In this document: positions 26,035-29,555 of the stretch, piece by piece | Numbering within the stretch: position 1 is the stretch's first letter | Layout: each line of letters opens with the position of its first letter | Origin: Flavobacteriales bacterium | GTDB taxonomy: Bacteria > Bacteroidota > Bacteroidia > Palsa-965 | Direction of reading: 5' to 3' | DNA length: 33,534 nucleotides | NCBI GenBank assembly: GCA_002737665.1 | Contig: NSIF01000019.1 | Location: 1-33,534 of the forward strand | Translations under genes and position numbers: made by a program | Notes under the pieces: model-generated | The model's input: the letters and a program-made list of their open reading frames with translations, nothing else | Database searches by the model: none | Told to the model about the DNA's origin: nothing

Positions 26035-26853
26035 TTATAATGGATTTTGAATTGAATCACTAGTATTTATTTTCGAGAGGTCATTGGTAACATGCAAATC
26101 AATAACAGAACCAATAACTAATCGACGATCTCTTCCAAACTTAGGTTCCTGTTGGTAAACAATGGCACTCAAAGTATCTTTAATTCCTGCATCAGCTACT
26201 ACCATCCATTCTAAGCCAAGATCCATCAGCTTACCGCGTGCTGCACGAAAATTTAAACCAACCAATTGTGGAACAAGACATCCTTGTGTACTTGCGTTTA
26301 AACCCTTTCCAAACAAAAGCGTTATCGTCTGACCTTTCGCAATTAATGTACCTGGTGCAATGCGTTTATTATTATACAGCTGTGTTATAATACAACCATC
26401 ACATGGACCATCAACAGCTTTCCCAAAGCCAAGTAATCCATAGCTTTCGCAAATAGCCAATGCTTGCCGTAACGAAAGGTCCTCTAACTTTGGCATATTT
26501 ATCATTGGGGGACGAATTGAAGTAACATATAAATATATTTTTCTTCCTTTTTTAACTTTATCACCTGGTTCAGGATCTTGCTTTATAACAACTCCCCTTT
26601 CCAATTTCGGATTCCATATTGAATCAATAATTTCAAAACCTAATCCCTTATTTTCAACAAATGACGCAAGTTGCCTTACTTTTAAATTCTTAAAATCGGG
26701 CACATCAACACTTTGATTATGAGTTGTATAAGATGCCATTGAAATAAAAATAATCCACAGTAGGAGAGGAATTGACACAATAGCAATGCCGAAATTGATT
26801 AGAAAAATTCGACTCTTCAAAAAAGCGGAAATGTTTTTCATTCTACTAATCAT
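26035..26853 (-). CDS. Membrane-anchored protein with three PASTA domains
   Basis: A 272-residue protein with a short cytosolic N terminus, one membrane helix (about 17-40, IFLINFGIAIVSIPLLLWIIFISMA) and three extracytoplasmic PASTA repeats: about 47-112 (VDVPDFKNLKVRQLASFVENKG, VIKQDPEPGDKVKKG), 114-186 (INMPKLEDLSLRQALAICESYG) and 192-262 (CLVPQLVGLNFRAARGKLMDLG, VYQQEPKFG). PASTA domains bind peptidoglycan stems or beta-lactams; here no kinase or transpeptidase domain is attached. The start ATG overlaps the ddl stop as ATGA, so translation is coupled. Linkage to a D-Ala ligase-like gene supports a role in wall synthesis or sensing. Confidence 0.93.
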   Translation of the reverse strand: MISRMKNISAFLKSRIFLINFGIAIVSIPLLLWIIFISMASYTTHNQSVDVPDFKNLKVRQLASFVENKGLGFEIIDSIWNPKLERGVVIKQDPEPGDKVKKGRKIYLYVTSIRPPMINMPKLEDLSLRQALAICESYGLLGFGKAVDGPCDGCIITQLYNNKRIAPGTLIAKGQTITLLFGKGLNASTQGCLVPQLVGLNFRAARGKLMDLGLEWMVVADAGIKDTLSAIVYQQEPKFGRDRRLVIGSVIDLHVTNDLSKINTSDSIQNPL

Positions 26854-29555
26854 ACAGATTGCTTAATTTGATTACGCTTACGTTCAAATGAAAAATCAAG
26901 AATACGATCAATAAAATCATAAGGTTTGTAAGCATTAATTGCGGCTTGGTGAAATATACAAGTTGCAGGCGTCATACCAGGCAACGAGTTTACTTCAATA
27001 AATATTATTTCAATTTTTTGCGGAGTATAAACACGGACAAAAGCATCTATTCTTGCATAACCCTGAATATTTAGAAGACGCGCGGCGGCACTAAAAGTTG
27101 CTTTAACCTGATCCGAAATTTGTTGTCGATGCTGAGGATCTAAGGCATACCTCGCTGGAGTTATATTCTGACCTTGTCCAGCCAAAAACTTTTCTTCTAA
27201 AGAAAGTACCTCTCCTTCCGACAGGGCTTCAGAAGCTTCGAAAACTTCATAATCTATTTCTCCTTTAGCATTATATTTAGTTAGCAAGCCACCTGTTATT
27301 TCCAAAAAATGATTTGCGGTCTTCTTACTTATTAATTCTTCAATTAAAAATACTTTTTTACGAGGAAACTCTTCCTTTGCTTTTATTTTTAAAACCGCTG
27401 CTAGTTCAGGATCAAAATCTTCCGTCTTCCGAAAAATTAATTTAGCAAAAGTTTCTAATTCCAATTTAGTTTTAATCCTTCGCACTGCTGAACTACAACC
27501 ATCATCAACAGGTTTAGCAATAAAAGGCCACTTTATATTTTCGTCAATTAACTTTAATGTTTTTTCGCGATTACTGTTCCAATCTTCCTCACTTATAAGT
27601 AAATGTGATGCCGTTAGCAATCCATTCGCCAGGAGTAACTCGTTGGTTCTAAATTTATCAATTGTAATTTCAGAACTTGCCTTTCCTGATCCATTGTATG
27701 GAATACCAAACGCATCTAATTTTTCCTGCACAGCACCATCTTCACCAGGCCGACCATGAAGTCCTAGGAAAACTGCATCTGACAGTTGCGCCAATTCTTC
27801 ATAATTAATCTTGCGTGGTGCTGCTAGCGAATCGGGAGTTGAATACGTTTGCGTAATGGACGTACAGGAATCAATAATTCGCTGTACAACTGGATGAACT
27901 TTCCAATTATTAATTTTATCTTTTATGTCATCAGCATTATCTTTTAATAAAACGTTGACTGGAATAATAAATAATTGATGGTCTAAATTATTGCCCGATA
28001 AAAAAACTGGAAACGGGGCATACTTCGTAGATGAGGAAAGTTTTTCATAAATATTCCTTCCACTTTCAACGGAAATATGTCGTTCAGAAGAATAGCCGCC
28101 AAGAATTACAGCAACTCTCAATTTCTTCTCACTTTTTGATTTGGATTTTCGCATTGCGTCATCCAATTTCATCAACAAATGATCATATTTTTTTGCATTC
28201 TTATCAGCCCGAATACGTGCTCGCAAAGAAGTTCGAAGAATAAAGGTTAGAAATTGCGAAGGATTTAAGCCAATCTCAGCTGCTTGGTGAAAAAAGAAAG
28301 AAGAGGGCATCATCCCAGAAGTCGTATTAGGATCGTTGAGGTAAATGACTCCATTTGCAGCAATAAATCCATCTATGCGCGCATACACATCAAAACTCAG
28401 TTCTGAAAAAAGTCTTTCACATTCTTTTCTTATTTTTTCAATTTGATCTTCCGGTAGTTCAATAGGTGTTATTTTACGAGCGAGACCTGGTAAATATTTT
28501 GAACGATAATCAAAAAGTTCTTTCCCCTTACGAATTTCAGTTGGAGGAAGTGCAACTGCTCTTTCTTCCTCATCTTCTATTACAATACATGAAAATTCTT
28601 TGCCTTCAATAAATCCTTCCAATAAAACCTCGGCCTCTGAATCAAGAGATTCAAAAAATAAAGATGAATTATATTTTGAGAAATGAGCTGTTGTTTTAAC
28701 CAGCAAAACATCAGGATGAAAAATGATTTCTTTTTCATCATTCATATGAATGACAACAGGCATTCCAATACCCTCTCGAATATCTGTAAGCAATCGAATG
28801 GTTTCAATTTGCGCTATCTTATCCTGAATTTTCCATTCTTCAGCAGAAATGGTACGCGTAAAAAAACTTTTGTTTAATGCTTCGGTAAACGCATTAACAT
28901 TTTCATTTTGTAAAATAGTTATACCAATAGAAGAACCTTGAGTAGCAGATTTTACAACAAGTGGAAATCCAATTTCTTTTACCGCTTTTTCATAAATAGT
29001 ATTTGAATTTTGCCCAAACCAATCTTTTCTTTTTACTGCGAAAAAATTAGGAGTAGCAAAGCCGGCCTTCGCCATCAATTTCTTCTGAAGTACTTTATCA
29101 ATTCCTATTATAGAAGGAAGAATACCACTACCTGAGTAAGGAATCCCCCAATATTCTAACATTCCCTGAATGCGCCCGTCTTCACCATAAGGACCGTGCA
29201 AACACAAAAAAGCAAAATCAATTATTTTTTTTAATTCAACCTCCCCTACCCGCTGGCCCAATCGCAAGGCCATTTCCTCCTGAGTAGCTAAGCTAGGATT
29301 AAGAGACTCTGCATAAACCTGAAAATCTCCTACAGAAGTGGGAACCATGTCAAGGGGTGGATAAAAATCGCGAATACTTCCCTTGTAAACATATTCCCAA
29401 TTTAAAAGAATAAATTTTCCAAAACTATCCACAAAAATTGGAATAGGTTCGAAGAGCTCCTTGTCGAGATTATCATAGACAGTTCTACCACCGGCGAAAG
29501 AAATTTCACGTTCTTTTGAAACGCCTCCGAATAGAATACCAACCCTTATTTTCAT
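26850..29555 (-). CDS. ddl: Tandem (double) D-alanine--D-alanine ligase-like ATP-grasp protein
   Basis: At 901 residues this is more than twice a normal Ddl (about 310-370) because it contains two full ligase units. Unit 1 (about 1-450) has GGVSKEREIS, FLCLHGPYGEDG, VVKSATQGSSIG, FDYRSKYLPG and YARIDGF...LNDPNTTSGM. Unit 2 (about 470-890) has GGYSSERHIS, LGLHGRPGEDG, IAKPVDDGCSSA, LEEKFLAGQG and YARIDAF...EVNSLPGMTP. A Lys/Ser-rich linker (MRKSKSKSEKK) joins them. Compared with E. coli DdlB, unit 1 keeps the E15-S150-Y216 triad but has Asp for Glu270; unit 2 has Cys for S150 and Phe for Y216 with an intact metal loop. Family members join two D-amino acids for the peptidoglycan stem in the cytosol. 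It leads an operon with the PASTA and T9SS genes. Confidence 0.92.
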   Translation of the reverse strand: MKIRVGILFGGVSKEREISFAGGRTVYDNLDKELFEPIPIFVDSFGKFILLNWEYVYKGSIRDFYPPLDMVPTSVGDFQVYAESLNPSLATQEEMALRLGQRVGEVELKKIIDFAFLCLHGPYGEDGRIQGMLEYWGIPYSGSGILPSIIGIDKVLQKKLMAKAGFATPNFFAVKRKDWFGQNSNTIYEKAVKEIGFPLVVKSATQGSSIGITILQNENVNAFTEALNKSFFTRTISAEEWKIQDKIAQIETIRLLTDIREGIGMPVVIHMNDEKEIIFHPDVLLVKTTAHFSKYNSSLFFESLDSEAEVLLEGFIEGKEFSCIVIEDEEERAVALPPTEIRKGKELFDYRSKYLPGLARKITPIELPEDQIEKIRKECERLFSELSFDVYARIDGFIAANGVIYLNDPNTTSGMMPSSFFFHQAAEIGLNPSQFLTFILRTSLRARIRADKNAKKYDHLLMKLDDAMRKSKSKSEKKLRVAVILGGYSSERHISVESGRNIYEKLSSSTKYAPFPVFLSGNNLDHQLFIIPVNVLLKDNADDIKDKINNWKVHPVVQRIIDSCTSITQTYSTPDSLAAPRKINYEELAQLSDAVFLGLHGRPGEDGAVQEKLDAFGIPYNGSGKASSEITIDKFRTNELLLANGLLTASHLLISEEDWNSNREKTLKLIDENIKWPFIAKPVDDGCSSAVRRIKTKLELETFAKLIFRKTEDFDPELAAVLKIKAKEEFPRKKVFLIEELISKKTANHFLEITGGLLTKYNAKGEIDYEVFEASEALSEGEVLSLEEKFLAGQGQNITPARYALDPQHRQQISDQVKATFSAAARLLNIQGYARIDAFVRVYTPQKIEIIFIEVNSLPGMTPATCIFHQAAINAYKPYDFIDRILDFSFERKRNQIKQSV

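Follow-up and report, generated by a model that had tools for sequence, protein, structure and literature searches.

Ddl, the target of D-cycloserine, is an essential enzyme that is usually viewed as one ligase fold per chain. In the window analyzed here (the whole stretch of 33,534 nucleotides), one reading frame encodes a Ddl-like protein of 901 aa with two units, whereas a single-unit D-Ala-D-Ala ligase has roughly 300-370 aa. The locus raises the question of what such a double-length protein makes and how its two halves share the work. The features considered are listed below; equivalent positions, given after an equals sign, refer to E. coli DdlB (sequence from NC_000913), which served as the reference for residue numbering.

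26850-29555, minus strand: gene for the 901-aa double-length Ddl, with both units in a single frame (ORF; each half matches the Pfam N and C domains, and the protein exceeds the TIGR01205 and NF002378 cut-offs)
28206-29555, minus strand: unit 1 (aa 1-450), with E15, K154, K202, S208, S209, K353, Y354, R393, D395, D408 (=E270), N410, S413 (=P275), S419 and F420 (=L282) (DdlB alignment)
28332-28334, minus strand: Asp408 codon, at the position of the DdlB metal ligand Glu270 (alignment)
28317-28319, minus strand: Ser413 codon (=Pro275); Ser in 137/137 full fusions, Pro in 25/25 shortened proteins read (alignment)
28125-28205, minus strand: linker joining the two units (aa 451-477), in the model largely helical (458-477) (AlphaFold2 secondary structure)
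26871-28124, minus strand: unit 2 (aa 478-895), with E491, K634, K681, C687 (=S150), S688, E739, K789, F790 (=Y216), R835, D837, E854 (=E270), N856 and T865 (=S281) (DdlB alignment; Ddl fold)
27837-28085, minus strand: part of the N-terminal region of unit 2 (aa 491-573), which persists in decayed form in family f68 (alignment of f68 proteins)
27495-27497, minus strand: Cys687 codon (=Ser150) (alignment)
27186-27188, minus strand: Phe790 codon (=Tyr216) (alignment)
26961-26963, minus strand: Thr865 codon (=Ser281, acceptor carboxylate) (alignment)
26035-26853, minus strand: gene for a membrane protein of 272 aa with PASTA domains, sharing 4 bases (ATGA) with the end of the Ddl frame (ORF, Pfam)

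That this frame holds two complete Ddl-like units, as the initial annotation had stated, is confirmed by the domain matches: in Pfam, two stretches match Dala_Dala_lig_N and four match Dala_Dala_lig_C, with N and C domains in both units. The whole protein scores 360.6 bits against TIGR01205 (cut-off 245.65) and also exceeds the cut-off of NF002378. Its scores against the NCBIfam models D_ala_D_lac (190.7 bits) and D_ala_D_ser_VanG (249.6 bits) fall far under the respective cut-offs of 550 and 495. The two units of the window protein are 24.7% identical to each other.

The alignment to DdlB agrees with the active-site changes first read by eye. Unit 1 keeps the triad E15, S150 and Y216 (as E15, S208 and Y354), while the metal ligand E270 is replaced by D408. 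Unit 2 has all three metal ligands (D257, E270 as E854, and N272), but its triad reads E491, C687 and F790. The alignment further revealed two changes that the initial annotation lacks: P275S in unit 1 (S413) and, at the acceptor-site position Ser281, which unit 1 keeps as S419, S281T in unit 2 (T865). All 137 aligned full fusions carry these five substitutions, namely E270D and P275S in unit 1 and S150C, Y216F and S281T in unit 2. It should be noted that 79 of these 137 proteins come from the window and named contigs and the remainder from other genomes, and that a few genomes entered twice. Such fixation over a large clade makes the observation stronger than first stated. In contrast, E270, P275, S150, Y216 and S281 are found in 39/39 of the single Ddl sequences compared. 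The only positions that are near-invariant within the fusions and within these 39 sequences, yet differ between the two sets, are G22, V390, D408, S413 and F422 in unit 1, and C687, F790 and T865 in unit 2.

We also considered whether a shifted register might hide another Ser or Tyr at the S150 and Y216 positions of unit 2. The S150C register is firm, as divergent members of the fusion family read GCSMGV and GCSSGV where DdlB reads GSSVG, and the predicted omega loop of unit 2, a low-confidence stretch of the AlphaFold2 model (779-797), contains no Tyr. This possibility was thus ruled out.

Both units are under equal purifying selection, with a median dN/dS of 0.051 for unit 1 and 0.044 for unit 2 (18 pairs, close enough for measuring). 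The listed residues of unit 1 are fixed in 135-137 of the 137 relatives (F420 in 134), and the ATP, Mg2+ and oxyanion residues of unit 2 in all 137. Over the 137 fusions, mean identity to the window protein is 62% for unit 2 and 59% for unit 1.

According to AlphaFold2, the full protein is modeled with a pLDDT of 85.5 and a pTM of 0.85 over 901 aa. As loose halves hardly exceed a pTM of about 0.5-0.6, the model implies that the halves are held in a fixed arrangement. The best PDB matches of the full protein are Ddl structures, with 1iow (DdlB Y216F) at a TMt of 0.89. Unit 2 alone (pLDDT 82.4, pTM 0.80) is predicted to adopt the Ddl fold. Its top Foldseek match is the Leuconostoc D-Ala:D-Lac ligase LmDdl2 (1ehi), followed by VanG and Ddl; since all close matches are Ddl-type, this ranking does not discriminate among types of Ddl.

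A family tree of both halves against single Ddl proteins, as the initial annotation had proposed, gave two sister clades. In this maximum-likelihood tree (88 rows, rooted at the midpoint only), unit 1, together with the f68 proteins, forms one clade (100/100), as does unit 2 (100/100), and the two units together form one clade (99/96), which groups with DdlA-type single Ddl, apart from most single Ddl of the class. Since the units are sister clades, the simplest reading is that the double-length form arose once in the class, when one Ddl was duplicated and fused.

The full-length form is frequent in a set of 59 relatives. When 396 genomes of the class were sampled, 211 had a Ddl over cut-off and nearly all others had a split-hit signature, which was the fusion in every case inspected directly. 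We thus place the fusion in about 175 of the 396 genomes (those with split hits, after removing four genomes of f68, two whose single Ddl is fragmented and four ambiguous ones), the rest having mostly a single Ddl. A scan of contigs revealed at least 555 encoding stretches, of which the best 80 nearly all carry titles of Bacteroidota-type organisms, including Pontibacter and Rufibacter; it is from these titles that the class is taken to be Bacteroidia. One contig titled Candidatus Saccharibacteria (L080) encodes a fusion of 64% identity and is probably a mis-binned Bacteroidota contig. Presence throughout the phylum was considered and dropped, as the fusion was not found in about 150 genomes of other classes, which have a single Ddl only.

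No second Ddl was seen in the fusion-carrying genomes, most of the complete ones giving one match only. The search for another ddl in the window's own genome yielded only weaker ATP-grasp matches; as this MAG is 66.6% complete, the absence rests on the relatives. In genera that lack the fusion, an ordinary single Ddl takes its place, and five families (f44, f53, f60, f61 and f63) each contain fusion genera and ordinary-Ddl genera. Given these mixed families, and as no genome was seen with both, the two forms look interchangeable. In two genomes of family f1, the fusion, or its second half, occurs twice at the ends of contigs (G008, contigs C49 and C50; G009, contigs C61 and C53), reflecting either a second paralogue or an assembly effect.

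The double Ddl occupies the usual ddl-PASTA locus of single Ddl. Of 80 fusion loci, 41 contain a PASTA gene, which lies immediately downstream in the loci listed; a PASTA gene also adjoins the single Ddl in 12/40 short loci. In one genome (locus L161, G316:C5:245789-248485 and downstream), a single frame of about 1,197 codons comprises Ddl-Ddl, a hydrophobic stretch and a PASTA-like tail, the tail being recognized by eye. Elsewhere in the window's genome, a MurF-alanine racemase fusion is encoded (G000:C33:3448-5928; NF008897 over cut-off). This second fusion was considered as an explanation for the double Ddl and rejected, since genomes with either type of Ddl commonly carry it and it is hence unlinked.

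Family f68 (101 genomes, 36 genera) presents a natural loss of most of unit 2. Its proteins consist of unit 1 and a decayed stub of unit 2 that ends near residue 573, with only pieces seen in a few broken assemblies, and the remainder of unit 2 was not found elsewhere in the f68 genomes. In some stubs, GGYDAEIREESYAKAR stands at the site of GGYSSERHISVESGR in unit 2, a resemblance that identifies the stub as a decayed Ddl N-terminal region. In the f68 proteins that we read (25 of 34), unit 1 retains E15, S150, Y216 and Asp408, with Pro at position 275 in 25/25 and Leu at position 282 in 21. Six closed single-contig f68 genomes contain no other Ddl; as Asp408 is kept there without another Ddl, E270D is compatible with function. 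Some other f68 genera (genomes G614, G556, G627, G586 and G553) have an extra ATP-grasp ORF of 319-337 aa that is weakly Ddl-like. In the tree, f68 is placed beside Hymenobacteraceae. Reversion to Pro275 in f68 should nonetheless not be taken as an established event: an AU test does not reject a position of f68 outside all full fusions (p 0.206), so Pro275 could be ancestral.

We consider the protein to be most probably, at about 60%, a double-length housekeeping D-Ala-D-Ala ligase in which unit 1 is the catalytic half and unit 2 a co-conserved ATP-binding partner of altered acceptor chemistry. The D-Ala-D-Ala product is inferred from the replacement of single Ddl by the fusion genome by genome, with sister genera having an ordinary Ddl. 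Unit 1, with Asp in place of the metal ligand Glu270, would most likely perform the ligation, as f68 lost most of unit 2 but kept unit 1. Unit 2 would be a second ATP-grasp site that kept its ATP and Mg2+ residues and lost three hydroxyl-bearing residues on the acceptor side (S150C, Y216F and S281T). It would probably act as a nucleotide- and D-Ala-binding partner in a fixed pseudo-dimer, supporting or tuning unit 1 rather than working as an ordinary ligase. Two points count against this explanation. Proteins that have unit 2 always carry Ser413, and those that have lost most of it carry Pro, so unit 1 may depend on its partner in the full fusion. The conservation of unit 2, slightly higher at 62% versus 59%, also exceeds the need of a passive partner.

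Other readings were weighed as well. The protein might be one obligate two-site ligase in the manner of carbamoyl-phosphate synthetase, with unit 2 spending ATP on a partial reaction, or on an allosteric step, that the Ser413-bearing unit 1 needs, and with the same design, and possibly the same ancestor, in the plant plastid DDL; we regard this reading as a tentative possibility. It is rather doubtful that both sites work on different acceptors or in sequence, with unit 1 making D-Ala-D-Ala and unit 2 a D-Ala-D-lactate-like or other product, or with the two sharing a reaction like the carbamoyl-phosphate synthetase halves. The fixation of the ATP, Mg2+ and oxyanion residues of unit 2 at such a low dN/dS is consistent with a second working site, as is Phe at the Y216 position, a mark of the depsipeptide ligases of lactic acid bacteria (PMC5996685), and, weakly, the 1ehi match. 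Yet related genera have an ordinary Ddl in place of the fusion, f68 as a family has lost most of unit 2, the D-Lac and D-Ser models score far below cut-off, and unit 2 lacks S150 and S281 as well as the Tyr. The initial annotation had inferred that the units differ in acceptor, or that one is a regulator or sequential partner of the other. As the active-site changes of the two units are fixed and different and neither unit is decayed, they may fairly be described as two specialized halves or as an enzyme with its partner, and f68 favors the option of unit 1 as enzyme and unit 2 as regulator or partner. A difference in acceptor, or the formation of a depsipeptide, is supported by one residue analogy only: the genome-by-genome replacement of ordinary Ddl fits D-Ala-D-Ala, and a second acceptor such as D-lactate finds no support beyond Y216F.

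The roles could also be reversed, with unit 2 as the main ligase and unit 1, with its altered metal ligand, as helper. Unit 2 has the canonical Asp257, Glu270, Asn272 and Pro275, its conservation is slightly higher, and Pro275 in the f68 unit 1 looks as though full activity had been regained there. We regard this reading as improbable, as unit 2 misses Ser150, Tyr216 and Ser281, which all 39 single Ddl have, and as f68 lives with a unit 1 bearing Asp408. Least probable of all is a dead, purely structural unit 2 attached to an ordinary D-Ala-D-Ala ligase. The changed triad and the decayed N-terminal remnant in f68 agree with such a half, but every ATP and metal residue is fixed in 137/137 and unit 2 evolves under the same constraint as unit 1. 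Equal purifying selection on both units argues that unit 2 is not dead, and a dead second half, the case against which the initial annotation had set its claim, was thus ruled out as the main reading.

The findings imply that a large part of Bacteroidia relies on a two-site Ddl, the second site of which has fixed, unusual acceptor-side residues, and f68, as a natural deletion family, offers a ready comparison for the division of labor between the units. Our targeted literature searches of open-licence papers found no report of a bacterial double Ddl. The fusion resembles E. coli DdlA and DdlB in fold, domain order, ATP and Mg2+ residues and the ddl-PASTA locus, with its units on the DdlA side of the tree, but differs in having two units per chain and in the five substitutions. 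With the D-Ala-D-Lac ligases (Leuconostoc LmDdl2 and those of lactobacilli) it shares Phe at the Y216 position, F790 of unit 2; those ligases are, however, single-unit, whereas unit 2 also carries S150C and S281T and the fusion stands without an ordinary Ddl. The large subunit of carbamoyl-phosphate synthetase, CarB, is likewise a duplicated and fused ATP-grasp pair in one chain, but of another family and with other substrates, such that the analogy is one of architecture only. Plants have a comparable protein: a fusion of two DDL in one gene is found throughout the plant lineage, including Arabidopsis and Physcomitrella, with the activity of each half unproven (PMC9954125). These are plastid proteins of plants, unlike the bacterial fusion, and the moss Ddl is reported to be nearest to the Fibrobacteres-Chlorobi-Bacteroidetes group (PMC9434261). 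With an origin reported near the Bacteroidetes group, the unexplained plant DDL-DDL is turned by the bacterial fusion into a testable question.
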